Part shown: positions 10,793 to 20,882 of the stretch, in pieces
Position numbering within the stretch: position 1 is the stretch's first letter
Layout of the letters: each line of letters opens with the position of its first letter
Assembly (NCBI RefSeq): GCF_034087045.1
Contig: NZ_CP139247.1
Location: forward strand, 7,590,001-7,654,000
Direction: 5' to 3'
DNA length: 64,000 bases
Origin: Chitinophaga sancti
GTDB lineage: Bacteria > Bacteroidota > Bacteroidia > Chitinophagales > Chitinophagaceae
Notes under the pieces: model-generated
What the model saw: the letters and a program-made list of their open reading frames with translations, nothing else
Database searches by the model: none
What the model was told of the DNA's origin: nothing
Translations under genes and position numbers: made by a program

Positions 10793-10800
10793 GAAAAAGC

Positions 10801-10817
10801 AAAACCCGCTCTAAGAG
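10801..10817 (+). terminator. Left half of a terminator split by an IS insertion
   Basis: Bases 10801-10817 joined to 12260 onward give AAAACCCGCTCTAAGAG plus CGGGTTTT, a near-perfect palindrome with a 1-nt centre. The 9 bases CTCTAAGAG (10809-10817) are repeated at 12251-12259 as the target duplication of the IS. The terminator can no longer form as a local hairpin. Confidence 0.7.
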
Positions 10818-12207
10818 CTACCGTCTGGACACATCTCTAAAAAGAATCCAGCCTTGCATGACTGCAGTAAATTTCTGCAGCCCCATCCAAAAGGTAGTGA
10901 TGCCGGGCTTACGTTCAGATAGATAGCCTTTCCAGCCACCCAATCTGGCTATAGCCCATATATACCTTCTCAGATCGGAAGATGTATATGGGTTTTTTAG
11001 TTTATCCGTTTTGCCTTCTAACTGTTCGATCTGCTGTTCCAGACATTCTATTTCTTCAGCAGAAAAGCAACTCTGAGGACAGGATTCTTCAGGTATTGAG
11101 TATGCTATCTGCATAATGAAAAGTTTGATGATGGTTTCGAGCATCATTAAACATAACTTTCTTATGGCTTTGGGTTGCGATAATTCACTCGCTTCAATAT
11201 TAAACCCTTCTTTCTTCAAAATTCGAAATACTTCTTCGATGACCCACCGGCAGGTATACCATTCTATGCAAAGCAATGCTGTTTGTAAATCCTCTACTTT
11301 TTTTGTAGTCAGTAACCTCCAATGAATGGGGTTCTTTATATCATCTCCCACTTCTTTAGCTTCTATAGCGTATAAGGTGATATTTCTCGGAAGATTTCTA
11401 TCGATGTATTGATTGCCTCTGATTGTTACTGTTGAAAAACGAACCTCTATTGTTGCTGTTCTTTTGGTTGTACTTCTTCTTTTATCGCCTTCTACTTTGA
11501 CCTCATAAGAACCTTGCAAAGGCTGGCTGCCAAGGTATTCAAAAAGCTTTTGTTTTTCCTGGACTATCCGATTGGTTTTTGCCCTTATAAGCAAGTGGGT
11601 CTTAGAATCAGGAACAAGTGCAAATTGTTCATAAATATCACCTTCTCTGTCCTGGATGATAATAATCTCGCTTGCAGACTGTAGAATATTTTTACTTTTC
11701 AGGGAACTCTCTATCCATCTATAAGATTCCTTACCCTCTATGGGAAGCATCTTTTTGATGGCTCACATCTTTTTTAGCTTGTTCATGTGATCTGTTCCAA
11801 ATCTTTATTGTGGAAAACCCATAAGGCATAAAACTTTCCGCATCTATAACAAATCCTGGATGTATATGAAACCCAAGACCATTAGTCGCAGCATTTGTCG
11901 TACCGATATAATCGTCCTTTTTTATCCTATTCTTGTGATTGTAAAGATTTACATCACTGGTGTCCTGAATGCACAACACTGGCCTGTTTCCAACACAACT
12001 AACACAATTGGAGGACATGTTTCTGATGATGTCATCTTCACTGACATGGTCATTTTGTAGAAAACGGTAAATGGCTTTGGCTTCTGAATCATTGCTAGCT
12101 AACCGTCTAATCGAATGTACACTATTAGCAAACAAGCGATTAAGAATGGAGTTACCTCTATTCATTAATCGCTTGTCTTTTATCTCGTAAAAATGCCTGC
12201 TTTGCAC
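10818..12207 (-). pseudogene. IS50-like transposase, disrupted by a +1 frameshift
   Basis: The N-terminal piece (12207 to 11731, GTG start) has the Tn5-type opening (RRLASNDSEAKAIYRFLQND) and the first catalytic Asp in VLCIQDTSD. The C-terminal piece (11750 to 10818) has the second Asp in IIIIQDREGD and the Y-2-R-3-E-6-K signature in YTCRWVIEEVFRILKK. The pieces overlap near 11745. On the coding strand the junction reads CAAAAAGATG; removing one A restores Q-K-M-L-P-I-E-G-K, the expected junction. So a single extra A in a short A-run breaks a protein of about 463 residues. The stop codon TAG lies in the terminal inverted repeat. Nothing suggests programmed frameshifting, because the shift is +1 rather than -1. 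Confidence 0.85.
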
Positions 12208-12250
12208 CTTTTTATTTCAAAAATAGAAATAAATTGTGTCCAGACGGTAG
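10818..12250 (-). mobile_element. IS4-family, IS50-like insertion sequence, 1433 bp
   Basis: The ends are 16-bp perfect inverted repeats (10818-10833 and 12235-12250) beginning CTACCGTCTGGACACA. The left end reads CTACCGTCTGGACACATCT, sharing CT at its start and ACACATCT at its end with the Tn5 mosaic end, as expected for the IS50 group. A 9-bp direct repeat CTCTAAGAG flanks it, the duplication size of this group. The element carries one transposase gene on the reverse strand, broken by a frameshift. The intact ends and duplication indicate a relatively recent insertion. Confidence 0.88.
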
Positions 12251-12271
12251 CTCTAAGAGCGGGTTTTGTAG

Positions 12272-12704: not shown

Positions 12705-12912
12705 TATAACTCCTACACTATAGAACTTAGACCTATAATGAATCTTCGCCTCCTACGCTTTACCCGGAAAATAACAAATCTACTTTTAGTATTGGACCAG
12801 GAATAAAAGTGCATGAGAGCGTTCTCCGGTCAAAAAACCGAAGACGCCCTTATTACTTATAATTTTCTGTGCTGTGAAAACAATTATGAGAATATTCTAT
12901 AGTTAATCTACT

Positions 12913-12933
12913 ATATTTGCAACAATGATGCAA
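12913..12933 (+). promoter_or_regulatory. Candidate promoter -7 box with overlapping Zur-like operator
   Basis: TATATTTG at 12913-12920 fits the Bacteroidota -7 consensus TAnnTTTG and lies 26 bp before the GTPase start codon. Overlapping it, 12917-12933 reads TTGCAACAATGATGCAA, an inverted repeat with TTGCA/TGCAA ends. It matches the box at 20002-20018 upstream of the opposite operon at most positions. Sharing between two metal-related operons and the overlap with the promoter suggest a repressor site. Zur is the guess; binding is unproven. Confidence 0.55.
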
Positions 12934-12946
12934 TAATACAAAACTC

Positions 12947-13933
12947 ATGAATACAATCAATCCAAAACCTGTAACAATCATTACAGGGTTTTTAGGCGCA
13001 GGTAAAACCACTTTTCTAAATGCTATACTATCCGGGAGCAAGACAGGAAAATACGCCATTATTGAAAATGAATTTGGTAAAGAATCTATTGATGGCGAAC
13101 TGGTGTTAGAGGTCGCCGACAGTATTTTTGAAATGAGCAGCGGGTGCCTATGTTGCAGTCTGAATGAAGATCTGGTAGAACTCCTCATCTCTCTTTCCAA
13201 AAAGGCAGTAAATTTTAAGGAACTGATTATTGAAACAACGGGAATCGCTGATCCGGCATCAATAGGTGTACCCTTTTTGGTAGACCCGTTGGTTACCCGG
13301 TATTATGAATTGCAACGTGTTGTTTGCGTCGTTGATGCACAAAATATTGCTTACGAACTGGCATCAACAGAGGAAGCCAGAAAACAAATCAGCTTCAGTG
13401 ATATATTATTGATCTCCAAAACGGACATAGTCAACCCCAATGAACTTGAAAACATAAAAAGTCTACTATACAATATTAATCCGTTTGCCATTGTTTTGTT
13501 TGTTACTGACGGCAAATACCCTATTGATTCAATAATGAATTTTAAAAGAAACGTTGAGCAGGTTACTGCTAATGAAGATCCTTCACTTAGCAAACATAAG
13601 GAACATCATCACCATGGTTTATCATCTCTTACTTTTTTATTTGATGACCCATTTGATCTACCAAAACTACATCATACTCTAATGATATTTCTGGCTGTTC
13701 AGGCGAAAGATGTTTATAGAGTAAAAGGAATCTTAAATGCTCAAGATGAAGATCAGAAAGTCATTGTTCAGTCGGTAGCGCAGTATCTGTCCCTATCACA
13801 TGGCAAACATTGGGAAGATGATGAAATAAAAAGAAGCCGGATCGTATTTATTGGTAAGGATCTGCAGTCTAAAGGTTTCGAAAAACTACTCAGACAATGT
13901 CTTTATAAAGCTGAATTGGATAAAAACGTATAA
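12947..13933 (+). CDS. COG0523 (CobW/ZNG1-like) GTPase metallochaperone
   Basis: The protein is 328 residues. It has a P-loop GFLGAGKT at residues 14-21, the diagnostic GCLCC metal-binding motif at 66-70, a GTPase base-recognition SKTD near 155, and a C-terminal CobW-type domain ending in RIVFIGKDLQSKGFEKLL. A His-rich stretch (KHKEHHHHG) lies between the domains. COG0523 proteins hydrolyse GTP and deliver zinc or another metal to client proteins; many are induced by zinc starvation. It opens a run of five tightly packed genes (10 bp to the ABC ATPase) and has a candidate zinc-type operator over its promoter. Metal identity is inferred from motif and context. Confidence 0.9.
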   Translation: MNTINPKPVTIITGFLGAGKTTFLNAILSGSKTGKYAIIENEFGKESIDGELVLEVADSIFEMSSGCLCCSLNEDLVELLISLSKKAVNFKELIIETTGIADPASIGVPFLVDPLVTRYYELQRVVCVVDAQNIAYELASTEEARKQISFSDILLISKTDIVNPNELENIKSLLYNINPFAIVLFVTDGKYPIDSIMNFKRNVEQVTANEDPSLSKHKEHHHHGLSSLTFLFDDPFDLPKLHHTLMIFLAVQAKDVYRVKGILNAQDEDQKVIVQSVAQYLSLSHGKHWEDDEIKRSRIVFIGKDLQSKGFEKLLRQCLYKAELDKNV

Positions 13934-13942
13934 ATAATCAAT

Positions 13943-14548
13943 ATGCTAGCTGTCAGGAACTTAACTTATACATACGATAATGCTGTCACCCTACGCTATC
14001 CTGATTTTTCATGTGCGAGAGAAGAAACCCTGCTTATAACAGGACGCAGTGGTTGTGGTAAAACTACACTACTACATATACTGGGAGGTCTAATAAATAA
14101 TTATAAAGGAGAAGTATGTATTGATGATTTGCTTATCAGCGGGCAAAGCACTCAATTACAAAACAGGAAAATGGGTATTATATTTCAGCATAGCCATTTT
14201 ATAAAAGGACTAACCGTTCGTGACAACATTCTTGTTGCTGTAAAACGGGATAAGTACAAATTTCTGCCTGTATTTTCCGAAGATCTTGGCATTGCACATT
14301 TGCTAAATAAATTCCCTTCGCAATTAAGCCAGGGAGAAAAGCAACGCGTTGGTATTGCAAGAGCATTGATAGGCCATCCAATGGTTCTATTAGCAGATGA
14401 ACCGACCAGTAGTCTTGATGATGAAAATACGGACGCTGTTTTAAGCCTGCTGAGGGAACAAGCTACTATATATCATAGTGCGCTAATCATTGTATCCCAT
14501 GATGACCGGATTAAAAAAGCACTAAATAGCCATATTGAATTGACATGA
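13943..14548 (+). CDS. ABC transporter ATP-binding protein, LolD/MacB type
   Basis: The 201-residue nucleotide-binding domain has Walker A GRSGCGKTT, signature LSQGEKQRVGIARAL and Walker B VLLADEPTSSLDDE, then an H-loop in IIVSHDD. It is short, as usual for LolD-like ATPases that work with FtsX-type permeases rather than as substrate importers with binding proteins. It overlaps the permease start by 4 bp, so the two are translationally coupled. Within this cluster it most likely powers a mechanotransmission or envelope step linked to metal supply. It resembles the ABC part of Zur-controlled operons described in proteobacteria (from memory). Confidence 0.9.
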   Translation: MLAVRNLTYTYDNAVTLRYPDFSCAREETLLITGRSGCGKTTLLHILGGLINNYKGEVCIDDLLISGQSTQLQNRKMGIIFQHSHFIKGLTVRDNILVAVKRDKYKFLPVFSEDLGIAHLLNKFPSQLSQGEKQRVGIARALIGHPMVLLADEPTSSLDDENTDAVLSLLREQATIYHSALIIVSHDDRIKKALNSHIELT

Positions 14549-15738
14549 TTATAAAACTCATTTTCGCCAACCTAAGATACAAATGGTTATCAACATTATT
14601 GAGTTGGATATTATTACTCTTCGGAGTAGCTATCATCTCACTGCTATGGACGCTGCAACAGCAATTAGAGCATAAATTTGACAATGAACTGAAGAATATT
14701 GATCTGGTCGTAGGTGCAAAGGGAAGCCCCCTTCAACTTGTACTCTCAGCTGTATATCATGTAGATGCGCCCACCGGAAATATTAACGAGATAGAGGCGG
14801 CCCGACTCACTCATAATCCAATGATCGAATGGAGTATTCCACTGGCTTACGGCGATAACTATAAAGGATATAGCATTGTTGGCACAACACTCAAGTATAT
14901 TATTAATGAGAATGGCCGTTTGGCAAATGGAAGAATTTTTCAGGAGCCGATGGAAGCAGTCATTGGAAGCAATGTCAAAGCTTCTGAGGGTCTAGAGATT
15001 GGTAGTACGTTTTTAGGGACACATGGGCAAGACGAACATGGGCACCAACATAAGGGACTTCCTTATAAGGTTGTTGGTATTCTTAAACCAGCAGGAACAA
15101 TGGCAGATAATCTTATACTAACAGATATTGCTACAGTCAGACTTATCCATGAACACCATGATATAGATGACAAAGATGAGGATGAGGGAAAACAGGTTGA
15201 AACCGAAATTACGGCTCTTTTAATCAAGTTTCGTAGTCCAATGGGCATGATGACTTTTCCACGTACAATAAACCAAACAACCAATATGCAGGCGGCCGTT
15301 CCAACGCTGGAAATCAACAGGCTGATGGGATTAATAGGAATAGGTATTGATACTTTGCAGTACGTCGCGCTGGCTATTATGATGATGGCAGGACTAAGTG
15401 TATTTATTTCCCTGCTGAACAGACTCAAAGAAAGAAAGTATGAGCTTGCATTACTTCGCTCACTAGGCTATTCACGCCTTCAGCTTTTTCTGATTGTGAT
15501 ATCTGAAGCCATGCTACTGTCATTCGCTGGCTTTTTAAGTGGTGTTGCTGTCAGCAGATTAGGGTTAATACTGCTAAACTATCAATCCAACACTAATTTT
15601 AAATTCTACATCTCAGTTATTTCGAAAGGAGAAATCATATTACTTGGCATTACCCTATTGATCGGTCTGGTAGCGTCCTTGATTCCTGCATTAACTATTT
15701 ACTGGCTTAATATTTCAAAAATCCTTTCCGATGAATAA
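14545..15738 (+). CDS. FtsX-family ABC permease with histidine-rich loop
   Basis: At 397 residues it has the MacB/LolC layout: one N-terminal membrane helix (STLLSWILLLFGVAIISLLW), a large extracytoplasmic domain, then three helices (YVALAIMMMAGLSVFISLL, LFLIVISEAMLLSFAGFLSG, IILLGITLLIGLVASLIPAL) and the coupling stretch RLKERKYELALLRSLGYSR. In the external domain, about residues 159-172, THGQDEHGHQHKG is rich in His and acidic residues, as expected for metal contact. It overlaps the ATPase by 4 bp and the next gene by 8 bp. Confidence 0.88.
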   Translation: MIIKLIFANLRYKWLSTLLSWILLLFGVAIISLLWTLQQQLEHKFDNELKNIDLVVGAKGSPLQLVLSAVYHVDAPTGNINEIEAARLTHNPMIEWSIPLAYGDNYKGYSIVGTTLKYIINENGRLANGRIFQEPMEAVIGSNVKASEGLEIGSTFLGTHGQDEHGHQHKGLPYKVVGILKPAGTMADNLILTDIATVRLIHEHHDIDDKDEDEGKQVETEITALLIKFRSPMGMMTFPRTINQTTNMQAAVPTLEINRLMGLIGIGIDTLQYVALAIMMMAGLSVFISLLNRLKERKYELALLRSLGYSRLQLFLIVISEAMLLSFAGFLSGVAVSRLGLILLNYQSNTNFKFYISVISKGEIILLGITLLIGLVASLIPALTIYWLNISKILSDE

Positions 15739-16186
15739 GTTTAAACTATTTGTATGTTATGTAATTTCTTCTTCAATTTTTCTTATTACAGCAGGCCAGC
15801 AAAAAGCAATAAATGTAAACTGGGATCTGTTGCAGAATATTCAGTTCAAGGAACGCTTCGTTAAGGAGATCGGCGGTTATATGCTATTTCCAACCTTCCC
15901 TGTAAATATTAAAAAATTAAATGGAACGGAGGTCATCATCGAAGGATATGTAGTCCCCTTTGATATTAAAGGTGAGAAGATCGCATTATCTGCGAATTCC
16001 TACGCAGCTTGTTATTTCTGTGGAAAGGCTGGTCCTGCCTCCGTTATGACTATTAATCTCAAAGTTTCAAACAAAAAATACAGAACAGACCAATACCGCA
16101 CCTTTAAGGGAAAACTCAGACTCAATGAAAATGACATTAATGAATTCTATTACATTATGGATGATGCAGTACAAATAAAAAATTGA
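15731..16186 (+). CDS. Secreted DUF3299-like protein
   Basis: A signal peptide (KLFVCYVISSSIFLITAGQQ) precedes a small beta-rich domain of about 125 residues with IEGYVVPFDI, and a two-Cys motif with ACYFCGKAGPASVM, the pattern of DUF3299-type periplasmic proteins. It overlaps the permease gene by 8 bp. Similar small proteins travel with LolD/FtsX ABC genes in zinc-responsive operons (recollection, not checked). The Cys/Gly motif could bind metal or haem-like ligands, but this is unproven. Confidence 0.7.
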   Translation: MNKFKLFVCYVISSSIFLITAGQQKAINVNWDLLQNIQFKERFVKEIGGYMLFPTFPVNIKKLNGTEVIIEGYVVPFDIKGEKIALSANSYAACYFCGKAGPASVMTINLKVSNKKYRTDQYRTFKGKLRLNENDINEFYYIMDDAVQIKN

Positions 16187-16190
16187 ATTT

Positions 16191-17024
16191 ATGACATATA
16201 TAAAATGGAATATAGATCCGGTTTTTTTTGAGATTGGAGGCCATTCTTTACGTTATTACTCCCTTTTTTTTGCACTGGGCTTTATATTAAGCTTTCAGAC
16301 ACTTCGGCAGATATTTATAAGCCAAGGTATACCCGAAAAATTGCTGGAACAACTAAGCATTTATATAATAGCTGGGACACTCATAGGTGCAAGGCTGGGC
16401 CATTGTTTATTTTATGAAGCCCAATATTATCTGGTTCACCCACTTGAGATAGTACTTCCGTTCAGATGGACAAGTGGCAGATTCACAATAACCGGCTTTC
16501 AGGGACTTGCCAGTCATGGAGGTGCCATAGGAATTTTTACTGGGCTCTTATTATATGCGCGTAAATACAAGTTACCCTTTTTGTGGCTGCTGGATAAATT
16601 ATGTATAGTTATTCCCTTATGCGGTGCCTGCATACGCATAGGCAACTTTTTTAACTCAGAGATCATAGGCAAAACGTCATCGGTGCAATGGGCAATTATA
16701 TTTGAGAGGGTAGACCAGATGCCACGCCATCCGGCTCAACTATACGAAGCCATCTGCTATCTTGGTTTATTTCTAATATTTAGGTTTCTATTACTGAATT
16801 TTCACACTCAGCGAAGGCCAGGGCGGTTGTCCGGTTATTTTATCATTAGCCTTTTTACCATTCGCTTCCTGATGGAATTTCTTAAAGCGAACCAGGAAAC
16901 TTTTGAGGATCATCTGCCCTTAAATATGGGGCAACTCTTAAGCATTCCGTTCATAATGTGGGGTGTTTATCTCGTGATTAGAACCGGGCGTTTAAAAAAT
17001 AGCAGCAGCAGTTTCATCTCATAA
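16191..17024 (+). CDS. lgt: Prolipoprotein diacylglyceryl transferase
   Basis: The 277-residue integral membrane protein has Lgt hallmarks: GLASHGGAIG, RIGNFFNSEIIGK, HPAQLYEA and RFLMEFLKANQE. Seven or so hydrophobic segments cross the inner membrane. Lgt transfers diacylglycerol from phosphatidylglycerol to the lipobox Cys of prelipoproteins. It begins 4 bp after the DUF3299-like gene, so it belongs to the same operon. Its presence in a metal cluster is unusual, and it may be a second copy beside a housekeeping lgt elsewhere (inference). The active-site His and Arg regions look intact. Confidence 0.92.
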   Translation: MTYIKWNIDPVFFEIGGHSLRYYSLFFALGFILSFQTLRQIFISQGIPEKLLEQLSIYIIAGTLIGARLGHCLFYEAQYYLVHPLEIVLPFRWTSGRFTITGFQGLASHGGAIGIFTGLLLYARKYKLPFLWLLDKLCIVIPLCGACIRIGNFFNSEIIGKTSSVQWAIIFERVDQMPRHPAQLYEAICYLGLFLIFRFLLLNFHTQRRPGRLSGYFIISLFTIRFLMEFLKANQETFEDHLPLNMGQLLSIPFIMWGVYLVIRTGRLKNSSSSFIS

Positions 17025-17187
17025 TCAATTTACGAATTAATTATTCATCAAATTTTTACCCTTCGACTAGCAGCCCCTGTTTGGCATAATAACACACTTA
17101 ACTGAAGATAAGTATAGGTATGTTAAACCCAAACATTCAACTATTTTTCAACACTGTTTCATGTGAAAATTTAAAATAAATCTGCAA

Positions 17188-17582
17188 ATGAAAGACGTTA
17201 CTACAATCAAACGATTACCCGTTACTGTATTAAGTGTTTTTCCAGGAAGCGGTAAGACAACGTTATTAAGTAATATCCTGCACAACAGAGATTCCCTTCC
17301 AATATCATTCGTTCAAAAGGCATTTTCCGGGTATCCGATAAGCCTCATAAAGCACAAAAATTATCACAGGCCGGAGGATCTTCCAGATTAGAGCTCGCCG
17401 GTATATGGTAGAGTAGCATGTCTTATGCTGACCGAATAAGTTATGGTGCATTTATAGAAAATATAGACCTTATTGAGTCCAGATGGGACAAAGACTTTGG
17501 AGACCGGGAAAATGAGCTTGTGTTTATAGGCCAGGATTTGAATAAAATAAATTGCAGGCAGCACTGGAATCATGTCTACTAA
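17188..17582 (+). pseudogene. Degraded second COG0523 GTPase gene
   Basis: The 5' piece (17188-17391) starts KRLPVTVLSVFPGSGKTTLL, a COG0523 P-loop in which the usual GFLGAGKT is changed to VFPGSGKT. The 3' piece, in another frame up to 17582, reads ESRWDKDFGDRENELVFIGQDL, the C-terminal end of the same family. The central ~200 residues, including the CxCC motif, are missing, so an internal deletion and a frame change have destroyed the gene. It indicates that the metal cluster once carried two such GTPases. Confidence 0.75.
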
Positions 17583-17661
17583 ATTATATAGGAATTGAAC
17601 TACTTAAAAAATAAGAAGCCAATCCTGATCAGGTTAAAATCCTTTCATCAAAATAATAGCT

Positions 17662-17889
17662 ATGAATATGCAACAAATAATCCCAACCAATTTTGTGGAA
17701 TGGAAATTCTGTATCACACAACAATGTCAAATACAGTTGACTTCGCATTTCATAAATAGTCGTATTTCAGAACTGGAAAATTTAAACAGCAAATCAACTA
17801 CTGATTTTATTGCCTTGTATGGGGACAAGCACTGGCAAAATGTGTTGACATGGTTTAAAAAAGCGCTGAGTGAACAAATGCAGATTTAA
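17662..17889 (+). CDS. Small hypothetical protein (75 aa)
   Basis: No family is recognised. The protein is soluble, without signal peptide, and has two Cys in WKFCITQQCQIQ and an aromatic C-terminal stretch (YGDKHWQNVLTWFKKAL). It follows the broken COG0523 gene by 80 bp and precedes a bidirectional terminator, so it was probably the partner of that lost gene. Coding potential looks reasonable but it could be non-functional. Confidence 0.5.
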   Translation: MNMQQIIPTNFVEWKFCITQQCQIQLTSHFINSRISELENLNSKSTTDFIALYGDKHWQNVLTWFKKALSEQMQI

Positions 17890-17998
17890 TCTTAATTGCG
17901 GTGAAACAGGAAAAGCAATTTAAAGCTCAAACAATTATAAAAAATGGTTTGCATTATAAAGTAACGGGGTGTTTAAATTTAGAGCGGTTTCTCATCAT

Positions 17999-18029
17999 CA
18001 ATAACCGGAACGTCTTGTTCCGGTTATTG
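17999..18029. terminator. Bidirectional terminator-like hairpin
   Basis: A perfect 13-bp stem (CAATAACCGGAAC / GTTCCGGTTATTG) with a 5-nt loop lies between convergent transcription units. Confidence 0.75.
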
Positions 18030-18097
18030 ATTGTCGTTTATTGCCAGTTAATTGATTGATACTGCAAAAATCTTAAGCAATAAGAAACCGTTGATAC

Positions 18098-19510
18098 TCA
18101 TCCCGCTAACCCCGCAGCATGGAGCATGAGCTGGTGTAAATCAGTATTCCTTACAAAAGGCTTCAGTGACTTACTGCCAGGTCCAAACATAGCTAATTCC
18201 ACATAGTCTGCAGAATGATCCATTGCCCCCCACCCTATGGAAGTATGGGCACTTTGTAATCCAGCCAGTTGTTTAAATGGAAGCTTACGTGGATTATAAA
18301 GACCCGGAGCATCAATATCTTTGAAATGCGTCAAAAGATCTGCTGCATCTTCTTTTGAAAGCACAATGCCCTGCGCTCCCTCAATACGTTCTATTAATCG
18401 GGCAGGTGTAAACGAATTAGTGACACCTGAAAGTATCCATTCATTAGTATATTTAAAATGTTGCAACTTATCAAAATTCTCGTTAGCTGCATCACCATAA
18501 AATAATCCCGGATTTGAATTACCATGATCCGTTGTTATAATAACCAGTGTATCGTTGTTCTTTTCAGCAAACGCTATTGCAATACCAATTGCATCATCAA
18601 ATGCCAACTGATCATAGATGAGTGCTCCTGCATCGTTGGCATGGGCAGCCCAGTCAACCTTTCCTCCTTCTACCTGTAATATAAATCCATTGCGATTCTT
18701 ATCTAAATGATGAATAGCCTGTTTGGTCATTTCGGCAAGTGTTGGCACTGATGACTGCAACTCTTTATCCTGCTCAAGATCCAGGGAAAATGGTAATCCA
18801 TTTTCAGTAAAAACACCGAGTACTGGCGTACCTGTTGGTTCTTTTAGATTTATCATTTCCGTACGGTTGCGCAATACTTTATAACCATTCGATCTGAAGT
18901 CACTTAATACATCTCTACCGTCTTTGCGCTTTTCAGCGGAGAAAAATTCCAGACCACCTCCCATCATAATGTCAAACTTCAGTGGAAGATATTGCAAGGC
19001 TATCTCTGCCTGATCACCACGACTGCTATTGCTAATACAAAACCCAGCTGGTGTTGCGTGCGTGATCGGAACCGTAGTAACACAGCCAACTGCTTTTCCC
19101 GCAGCTTTAAACTTGTTCAGAATCGTCTGATGATGTATACCATTCTCACTCACGTTTAAGACACCATTTTTCACCCTCACTCCTCCCCCCCAGGCAGAAC
19201 TAGCGGCAGATGAATCGGTGATTAAGGAACTAGCAGAGGCTGTATCCATCAAGGCTCTTACCACTTTCTGTTGCTCATACAATTTTATCCAGTTACATTG
19301 ACGACCAAACTTACGCATCGAAAGCAGACTAGCCATGTTTAGCGTACCAATACTCATCCCATCACTAACCATAAAAATGATATTCTTTGCCTGCTTGCCA
19401 TAGGAATACGCCAGCGGACCTTCATTTCCTGAACGCTGTAAGCTACCTGGCAGAAAAACCCCGCCTAAAAAGCTTAACGATGAATTTTTAAAGAATTCTC
19501 TTCTTTTCAT
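18098..19510 (-). CDS. Alkaline phosphatase (PhoA family), Tat-type signal
   Basis: The 470-residue protein begins MKRREFFKNSSLSFLGG, a twin-arginine export signal. The nucleophile region TDSSAASSAWGGG matches the DSxA motif of alkaline phosphatases. Metal ligands appear in MVSDGM, THATPAGFC, EGGKVDWAAHANDA, ITTDHGN and AHTSIGWGAMDHS. The enzyme hydrolyses phosphomonoesters in the periplasm and needs two zinc ions and magnesium. Its start lies 4 bp after the MerC-like gene, so both share the promoter with the zinc-type box. Export by Tat implies that it folds and is metallated in the cytoplasm, which would link it to a metallochaperone (inference). Confidence 0.92.
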   Translation of the reverse strand: MKRREFFKNSSLSFLGGVFLPGSLQRSGNEGPLAYSYGKQAKNIIFMVSDGMSIGTLNMASLLSMRKFGRQCNWIKLYEQQKVVRALMDTASASSLITDSSAASSAWGGGVRVKNGVLNVSENGIHHQTILNKFKAAGKAVGCVTTVPITHATPAGFCISNSSRGDQAEIALQYLPLKFDIMMGGGLEFFSAEKRKDGRDVLSDFRSNGYKVLRNRTEMINLKEPTGTPVLGVFTENGLPFSLDLEQDKELQSSVPTLAEMTKQAIHHLDKNRNGFILQVEGGKVDWAAHANDAGALIYDQLAFDDAIGIAIAFAEKNNDTLVIITTDHGNSNPGLFYGDAANENFDKLQHFKYTNEWILSGVTNSFTPARLIERIEGAQGIVLSKEDAADLLTHFKDIDAPGLYNPRKLPFKQLAGLQSAHTSIGWGAMDHSADYVELAMFGPGSKSLKPFVRNTDLHQLMLHAAGLAG

Positions 19511-19514
19511 GAAC

Positions 19515-19913
19515 CTATTTTATGTTGATGGAGTAATTATTGCAGGCATTACAAGAGCGCCAGTTCCCAACATGTGCCCCGATAATAGAAATGCTTCCAA
19601 TTAGTTTAAAGATTATTTCAAGCGGTGCTGAGGATACCATGTTACCAGCAATCATCAAACACAATCCTGCTGAAAAAAACAATACAAGAGACAAACGGTG
19701 ATGATGCTTTTTATATCCTTTATAAATAGCCCATCCGCCAACACTCATTGATACTATTATGGTAAGTATTTCCAAATAGATATTCTCAATCACCTCAATA
19801 CCAAATAAAGTGAACGTAGTAGTTATCAGCGGCAATAAAACGCAGTGTACAGCACAGGCAAATGACGCTCCTATGCCAATGGCATCTAACTTAATACGAT
19901 AAACCGTTTTCAT
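19515..19913 (-). CDS. MerC-domain membrane protein
   Basis: The 132-residue protein with about four membrane helices carries the MerC-type motif ASFACAVHCVLLP (two Cys and a His in the first helix). Further His (KKHHHR) and a Cys pair near the end (RSCNACNN) are consistent with metal handling. MerC proteins move mercury or other soft metals across the inner membrane; relatives in Bacteroidota are linked to zinc. It heads a two-gene operon with alkaline phosphatase. The promoter carries a candidate zinc operator. The metal is inferred. Confidence 0.8.
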   Translation of the reverse strand: MKTVYRIKLDAIGIGASFACAVHCVLLPLITTTFTLFGIEVIENIYLEILTIIVSMSVGGWAIYKGYKKHHHRLSLVLFFSAGLCLMIAGNMVSSAPLEIIFKLIGSISIIGAHVGNWRSCNACNNYSINIK

Positions 19914-19978
19914 AATTATACTCTTAAAAGCTCTAATAAACCCTTCATTCTCAAAGAAGTTTTGCTATGATAGCAATG

Positions 19979-20018
19979 CAAAGTTACAACATTTTACTTA
20001 TTTGCAACCAAGTTGCAT
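19979..20018 (-). promoter_or_regulatory. Reverse promoter with overlapping Zur-like operator
   Basis: On the reverse strand TAACTTTG (19986-19979) fits the -7 consensus, and a TTG of the -33 box lies about 21 nt upstream. The -33 element falls inside 20002-20018, which reads TTGCAACCAAGTTGCAT, an inverted repeat with 6-bp arms TGCAAC/GTTGCA. The same pattern stands over the promoter of the forward operon at 12917-12933. This is consistent with a common repressor. Confidence 0.6.
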
Positions 20019-20093: not shown

Positions 20094-20882
20094 ATGAAAA
20101 GCATAAACTTATTTTCATTTGATCTGAAAGCACAAGCCCGCAAAAAGATGATGATAGAAAAATTTAGTCCTGAGTTAATCTCAGCTCAGTGGCGCAAGGA
20201 CGGGACTCCGGGTGTAAGTCATGAGACAATTTATAAATGGGTATGGCAGTGTAAATTTGGCAACCGAAGAGATGATATACAGGACAAACGACTTTATTTG
20301 CATCTGAAGCATGCCCGTAGGAGACGTAAGCGGGGCAATTATAAAGATAATAGAGGATTAATATCCCACCGCGTTTCTATTGAAAAGCGGCCTAAAATAG
20401 TAAATAAACGGAAGCGGTTGGGTGATATGGAGGTCGATTTAATTATTGGTAAAAATCATCAGTCAGGCCTTCTGGTAACCCTTGACAGGGCAAGCTTGAT
20501 AACGACTATTGATAAAATAAACTCTAAAAAGCCAAAAAATATAAAAAGACTCTTGATGAAAAGACTGTCAGGTAATAAATTCATAAAGACTATTACATTT
20601 GACAATGACCAGGCATTAAGCCTTCATCACGAAATCGCAGCTGAACTTGGAGTAAAGACTTATTTTACCAGACCCTATACTTCTCAGGACAAGGGTAGTA
20701 TTGAAAACAGAAATGGCGTCATAAGGCGATTTTACCCAAAAAAAGACGGACTTCTGTGAGGTTTCTGTAAAAGATGTAAAAGCCGTAGAGAAAATGATTA
20801 ACAACAGACCTGTTAGAAAGTTTGATTACAAAACTCCTAATGAGGTATATTTACTAAAATCACGTGTTGCACTTATTGATTG
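20094..20882 (+). pseudogene. IS30-family transposase, 5'-truncated and frameshifted
   Basis: The reading frame (20094-20759) holds FSPELISAQWRKDG, VSHETIYKWVW and the DDE core: GDMEVDLIIGK with the first Asp, TFDNDQ with the second, and DKGSIENRNGVIRRF with the Glu. The N-terminal helix-turn-helix is missing. At about 20745 a run of seven A breaks the frame; with six A it reads on as P-K-K-T-D-F-C-E-V and ends at 20882 with VALID-stop. So one A insertion disrupts the 3' end. The catalytic core is intact but the protein is unlikely to be active. Confidence 0.85.

Follow-up and report, generated by a model that had tools for sequence, protein, structure and literature searches.

Regulons of Zur, the zinc sensor of the Fur family, are known from proteobacteria, actinobacteria, firmicutes, and cyanobacteria. 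In Vibrio parahaemolyticus, zinc shortage raises the expression of zrgE, zrgB, and zrgC, which belong to a Zur-controlled operon, 76-, 105-, and 148-fold, respectively, and these genes encode a DUF3299 protein, a permease, and an ATPase (PMC9817125, Table 1); ZrgB has been characterised as MacB-like (PMC9820375). The operons ZrgABCDE of Vibrio and PA4063-PA4066 of Pseudomonas aeruginosa respond to zinc starvation and, like the locus described here, combine an ATPase, a MacB-type permease, and a DUF3299 protein (PMC9817125, PMC9820375, PMC10393844). COG0523 proteins have also been linked to zinc (PMC2770081). We analysed a stretch of 64,000 nucleotides (the window; positions 7590001-7654000 of the one-contig, 8.32-Mb genome of Chitinophaga sancti) that, judging by its predicted operators and gene content, very probably holds a Bacteroidota zinc-starvation module, which would be repressed by Zur and freed at low zinc.

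The module consists of two convergent operons. The forward set (window positions 12947-17024, + strand, intergenic gaps of at most 10 bp) encodes a COG0523 (CobW/YjiA-type) GTPase with a GCLCC motif and a His-rich loop (12947-13933), a LolD-like ATP-binding cassette (ABC) ATPase (ZrgC-like, 13943-14548), an adjoining FtsX/MacB-type permease with His-rich loops (ZrgB-like, 14545-15738), a DUF3299-like protein (ZrgE/PA4066-like, 15731-16186), and a paralogue of Lgt, one of three in the genome (16191-17024). The reverse pair (18098-19913, - strand) encodes a MerC-family membrane protein with a CxxHC motif and a His-rich loop (19515-19913) and an alkaline phosphatase (AP) with a twin-arginine start and retained metal ligands (18098-19510). 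An earlier sequence-only reading of this DNA had described the same five-gene set facing a two-gene operon, and both its coordinates and the gaps were confirmed. Pfam and NCBIfam models confirmed the families of both operons, except for the DUF3299-like protein.

The start of each window operon carries a copy of the palindrome TTGCAAC-N3-GTTGCAA. Pattern search placed the two predicted Zur operators, to which no strand is assigned, at 12917-12933 (TTGCAACAATGATGCAA, five-gene operon) and 20002-20018 (MerC-AP operon), that is, at the bounds (12913 and 20018) of the stretch singled out by the sequence-only reading. Genome-wide, 34 sites matched the pattern with at most two mismatches, compared to 10 for the reversed pattern. 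No site matched without mismatches, and both window copies were among the 10 sites with one. Eight of these 10 precede zinc-type genes: the two window operons, a second locus described below (two sites), the TonB receptor gene of that locus, a COG0523 gene standing alone, and two divergent genes for small Cys/His proteins (two sites). Two-mismatch sites upstream of the Fur-family gene of the second locus (one) and of the same TonB receptor gene (one) bring the set to ten operators at eight start points. The surroundings were examined for 20 of the 34 sites (10 with one mismatch and 10 with two; the remaining 14 all have two), and the other 10 examined sites had no zinc-type gene nearby, with the exception of a two-mismatch operator-like site (L040:5027-5043) located 58 bp upstream of a gene for a P-type ATPase with a heavy-metal domain.

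The operators stand in a defined relation to TAnnTTTG, which we take to be the Bacteroidota -7 box. On the gene strand, this element was found near nine of the ten operators, the site upstream of the Fur-family gene having none. It began 5 bp before the operator start (five operators), 31-34 bp after it (three), or 16 bp after it (one), with both operators of the two paired-site promoters measured to one shared element. In the window, it is fused to the operator of the five-gene operon (TATATTTG, 12912-12919, + strand) and lies at 19979-19986 (- strand) in the MerC-AP promoter (TAACTTTG). At the loci of other genomes, 30 of 61 operators had TAnnTTTG at offset -5, versus 35 of 1960 WTGCAA words outside operators, both strands being counted for operators and control words alike; 44 of 61 had it at -5 or +28 to +36, versus 55 of 5000 random positions. 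A repressor bound to the predicted sites would sit on the -7 box or the -33 region, and on both where sites are paired.

Conservation was assessed at 80 permease loci, the best 80 of at least 583 confirmed relatives from a scan of species genomes, all Bacteroidota. Genes were called with our own profiles (E<=1e-4, one iteration; gene starts taken from the longest frame), built from two starting sequences, or from one for Lgt, Zur, and the TonB receptor (TBDR). The ATPase was found at 72 loci, the DUF3299-like protein at 68, MerC at 31, a Zur-like protein at 29, COG0523 at 22, AP at two, and Lgt at one. Operator sites numbered 50, in 33 loci, and 44 of them lay within -80 to +250 bp of the start of a module gene, the TonB receptor gene included; the reversed pattern gave seven sites, one of them so placed. 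The sequence-only reading had made its proposal depend on conserved operators and on co-occurrence of the gene set in relatives, and both were found. At one further locus (L137:12210-17537, genome G028), a zero-mismatch operator is followed by a gene for a small protein that is related, by eye, to the 'PVQLWHHH...CPVCHHQYS' protein of the lanthipeptide cluster described below, and by genes for a beta-barrel protein of the outer membrane and a TonB receptor.

The second locus in the C. sancti genome (L029), 3 Mb from the window, carries AP, MerC, ATPase, permease, DUF3299-like, and COG0523 genes in a single run and has no Lgt gene. Two operators lie upstream of the run, which is convergent with a Fur-family gene, and the TonB receptor gene of the locus has two operators as well. 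Identity between the window and second-locus proteins was 66% for COG0523, 66% for AP, 54% for MerC, 52% for the permease, and 47% for the DUF3299-like protein. On the permease tree, the window copy groups with P0002 (83% identical) and P0003 (Chitinophaga sp. CF118), and the second-locus copy with [Flexibacter] sp. ATCC 35208 and C. silvisoli. We rejected a recent duplication as the origin of the two loci because their permeases share only 52% identity and belong to different clades. The window copy evolves separately as a second system; it lies between insertion sequences and carries an added Lgt gene and a decayed extra COG0523 gene.

Two relationships were considered for the ABC pair. The sequence-only reading had assigned it to lipoprotein machinery that remodels the envelope. 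This assignment was not supported: the ATPase scored 141.7 bits against the LolD equivalog cut-off of 307.75 and the permease 15.6 bits against the LolCE cut-off of 362.45, scores on which Lol-type lipoprotein machinery was rejected, and the top Foldseek match of the DUF3299-like partner is PA4066. The PDB matches of the permease profile (LolF, YtrF, MacB, LolE, and one further ABC permease) cover its C-terminal domain only. The DUF3299-like protein, which has an N-terminal hydrophobic segment and a family-invariant CxxC, scored under the Pfam cut-off and was placed mainly by structure: its model has a predicted oligonucleotide/oligosaccharide-binding (OB) fold (pLDDT 90.7). Since structure comparison gave other OB-fold proteins scores equal to that of PA4066, ranking there does not by itself pick PA4066, and the assignment is carried by the Foldseek E-value, the profile match, and the gene context. 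Given this top match, the induction of the Zrg genes on zinc shortage, and the MacB-like character of ZrgB, zinc import is our best guess for the ABC/DUF3299-like system. Two or three tandem DUF3299-like genes were observed behind the permease gene in L057:10214-11528 and several other Pedobacter loci.

Among the remaining core proteins, the COG0523 protein has cobW and CobW_C domains and the CxCC motif. The MerC protein scored 69.8 bits against the PF03203 cut-off of 27.6, with C20, H23, and H114 invariant in 19 sequences. Its inclusion in a zinc-type set, made by the sequence-only reading, is supported.

In the mechanism we propose, Zur would occupy TTGCAAC-N3-GTTGCAA at the -7 and/or -33 region of the promoter and leave it at low zinc. 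The ATPase, the MacB-type permease, and the DUF3299-like protein would then form a zinc transport system like ZrgBCE/PA4064-4066, with import as the presumed direction. The MerC-like membrane protein may move metal into or across the inner membrane, and the COG0523 GTPase may deliver scarce zinc to priority cytosolic proteins, any client relation being likewise conjectural. AP would be a regulon member in some lineages, exported in the folded state through the twin-arginine translocation (Tat) pathway.

The AP matches Alk_phosphatase (PF00245) over its full length, with metal and nucleophile residues present. All ten aligned APs keep the twin-arginine start (M-x-R-R), the zinc/magnesium ligands, and the serine nucleophile, residue roles being presumably those of E. 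coli PhoA. The motifs THATPA and VEGGKVDWAAH align with near-identical ones in the solved alkaline phosphatases 7qow and 6qsq, which we take to be zinc enzymes, and no sequence sign of a zinc-free AP was seen in the ten aligned members. A search of the open-access literature on which metal D153H/K328W phosphatases prefer gave nothing useful.

In 117 genomes of the host's family, the permease (E<=1e-60) was found in six and AP in seven, including all six with the permease (hypergeometric P 2e-9, or 4e-8 without the C. sancti genome, kinship being ignored in both). Four of these seven AP-bearing genomes have AP next to the ABC genes (the C. sancti second locus, G002, G028, and G036), and in G015 and G099 it lies elsewhere in the genome; in G106, which has no permease, AP stands behind a two-mismatch site. 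It is also found beside ABC genes in [Flexibacter] sp. ATCC 35208 (L063) and Pedobacter quisquiliarum (L119, with one small frame between). Outside the family, 34 other genomes of the phylum sample had an AP match, and 20 AP loci from 19 of them were fetched. Module genes adjoin AP at three of these: MerC-AP beside a Zur-like gene in G207; a Zur-like gene, operator, MerC, COG0523, and AP, in this order, in G320; and COG0523, ATPase, permease, DUF3299-like, and AP at one of two AP loci in G292. At the other 17, they do not.

Three roles can be considered for this AP. As an addition to the zinc-starvation module, AP might liberate zinc: pre-metallated and exported under zinc scarcity, it would hydrolyse zinc-chelating organic phosphates such as phytate and nucleotides, and the freed zinc would enter via the TonB receptor and the ABC system. 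The zinc ligands are complete in the aligned members, several genomes have AP within the ABC operon or next to it, and the two C. sancti copies lie behind operators. The AP relatives outside the family, however, lie mostly apart from the module, and we regard this role as rather unlikely. The idea of the sequence-only reading, that COG0523 metallates AP in the cytosol prior to Tat export, agrees with the sequence but appears quite improbable: although a COG0523 gene directly adjoins AP in G002 (L122) and G320 (L146), no COG0523 match was found at some AP loci (L126, L129), and the 22 permease loci with COG0523 contrast with two with AP. Tat exports proteins in the folded state, so that folding and loading with metal ahead of export would be expected of APs whose twin-arginine start is invariant. 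Finally, AP could be a back-up isozyme using another metal, like the zinc-free paralogues of other Zur regulons. Replacement paralogues are frequent in such regulons (PMC6103462), and another PF00245 frame is present in the genome; with zinc ligands lost in none of the ten members and both motifs matching 7qow and 6qsq, we find little room for this possibility.

The regulator was sought among the Fur-family proteins of the genome, of which Pfam identified two (L029:5903-6313 and L041:4294-4722). The Fur fold and the CxxC structural site are present, and a profile of linked regulators had E. coli Zur as its best PDB match (E 2.6e-16), with Fur and PerR closely behind. A His-rich sensing loop is kept, by eye, in 13 of 16 aligned relatives and in the L041:4294-4722 protein. 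The L041:4294-4722 gene follows a SCO1/SenC gene, and a similar order was observed in Chitinophaga deserti (L111).

Several results weigh against a Zur-controlled zinc module. The fuller Fur-family protein scored 30.6 bits against a Zur-model cut-off of 167, with the Irr and PerR models slightly higher; the regulator is thus called Zur by context, as the NCBIfam models do not decide. The second-locus Fur-family protein does not have the His cluster of most relatives, and no canonical operator was found at up to four mismatches upstream of the fuller Fur-family gene. Fewer than half of the 80 permease loci have a MerC gene, the same is true of Zur-like and of COG0523 genes, and 47 loci have no operator site at the cut-off used. 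No ZrgA (DUF2796) match was found in the C. sancti genome by a search that was also silent in all 14 control genomes. In 345 genomes of the phylum, AP was found in 35, the permease in 48, and both in seven versus 4.9 expected (P 0.2); AP as a phylum-wide permease partner was therefore ruled out, and the pairing is confined to some lineages. A regulator that senses another metal or stress (Mn, Co, Hg, or peroxide) would accommodate the failure of Fur-family models to separate the candidates and the naming of MerC after mercury, but is very unlikely given that the work cited here on Zrg-type ABC systems with DUF3299 concerns zinc (PMC9817125, PMC9820375, PMC10393844) and that COG0523 and TonB receptor targets fit zinc.

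We therefore retain the Zur-controlled zinc-starvation module, with zinc as the metal and Zur as the regulator both inferred. Of the zinc-scarcity system put forward by the sequence-only reading, the part that stands is backed by the conserved operator, the second copy beside a Fur-family gene, the Zrg-type ABC system, and COG0523; AP stays as a regulon member in some lineages. What falls away is the envelope machinery and Lgt as a core member.

The Lgt protein scored 139.9 bits against the TIGR00544 cut-off of 118.9. Close relatives (E<=1e-30) occur in three of the 117 family genomes, C. sancti being the only one of these with the permease. In a metagenome-assembled genome of Mucilaginibacter (L062), a COG0523-Lgt pair faces the ABC genes. 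The window Lgt shares about 52-54% identity with its relatives in two family genomes and L062, and BLAST found no match between it and the other two C. sancti Lgt proteins at E<=1e-3. Given these counts and its single occurrence at permease loci, Lgt as a core member was ruled out; it is a rare accessory of the predicted module.

Between and around the two operons lie features that the sequence-only reading had overlooked. A decayed second COG0523 gene (17188-17546, + strand) retains N- and C-terminal pieces in different frames: a 74-aa frame matches positions 1-30 of the cobW family (17218-17304, E 5e-4), and an intact C. sancti COG0523 protein (L030) aligns in only two pieces, residues 4-55 (48%) and 264-350 (54%). 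Upstream of it is an operator-like relic with three mismatches (17146-17162, no strand assigned). A conserved 75-aa protein is encoded at 17662-17889 (+ strand), with Cys17, Cys22, and His57 invariant in four sequences and relatives 36-39% identical in L121, L127, and L125. Because its relatives in L127 and L125 are encoded between an operator and a MerC or COG0523 gene, this small protein probably belongs to the same predicted regulon. An IS4-type transposase in two frames (10818-12207) lies left of the module between inverted arms (10800-10833 and 12235-12268), and the right side has a transposase of the IS30 type (20094-20759).

Two divergent operators of the same type were observed about 27-42 kb left of the window (L136:9679-18059 and L031:6709-13638). 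On one side, a small His/Cys protein gene is followed on its own strand by genes for a C39-peptidase ABC exporter, a split lanthipeptide dehydratase, and a LanC-like protein. Close by, the opposite strand encodes a pinensin-family precursor with many His, Asp, Glu, and Cys residues in its C-terminal part. On the other side are genes for a small protein like the first, a TonB receptor, and an ABC-2 exporter. This cluster is a candidate for a zinc-regulated, possibly zinc-binding lanthipeptide.

New here are the operator, the membership of MerC and of a small protein, and the presence of a zinc-type phosphatase in a regulon predicted to respond to zinc starvation; the exported phosphatase is the surprising part of the set. 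Among the papers listed by a search of the open-access literature, none described a Bacteroidota Zur regulon with such an operator, or an AP or MerC in a Zur regulon. 'Bacteroid' is absent from the main text of the Zur regulon review PMC6103462, neither DUF3299 nor FtsX occurs in the ZepA paper PMC10957091, and the excerpts of PMC9976891 contain nothing on a Bacteroidota Zur regulon. The module provides a testable operator and target list for Bacteroidota, and would extend the poorly understood MacB-type zinc importers to this phylum with new partners. It also raises the puzzle of why a cell starved of zinc should produce a zinc enzyme for export. A zinc phosphatase that is controlled by Zur, metallated in the cytosol, and exported by Tat could be a dedicated part of a Zrg-type import machine and free or relay periplasmic zinc; the MerC-like proteins and the small Cys/His proteins would be additional new components. 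We put this forward as a tentative, rather doubtful proposal; if true, some Bacteroidota meet zinc starvation by spending zinc.

Compared to known systems, the window system shares with LolCDE the ATPase and FtsX-fold permease superfamily, but it has no second permease gene and does not reach the LolD and LolCE cut-offs. The AP resembles PhoA-type alkaline phosphatases in its full-length PF00245 match and its metal ligands, and differs in its twin-arginine signal, its place in a predicted zinc-starvation regulon, and its score against the NCBIfam PhoA equivalog (147.7 bits, cut-off 540). With the Zur-linked COG0523 GTPases of the YciC/ZigA group, the module has in common a COG0523 gene behind a predicted zinc-type operator, whereas the GTPase scored 136.4 bits against the cut-off of 600 for the ZigA equivalog (NF038288) and YjiA was the only solved relative found. 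The closest counterparts remain ZrgABCDE and PA4063-PA4066. From Zrg, the cluster differs in having no recognised ZrgA (DUF2796) or DUF2607 gene and in an operator sequence unlike the Vibrio site quoted in PMC9817125. The DUF3299-like protein has the invariant CxxC, and the cluster adds COG0523, MerC, AP in some lineages, and, in the window, Lgt.

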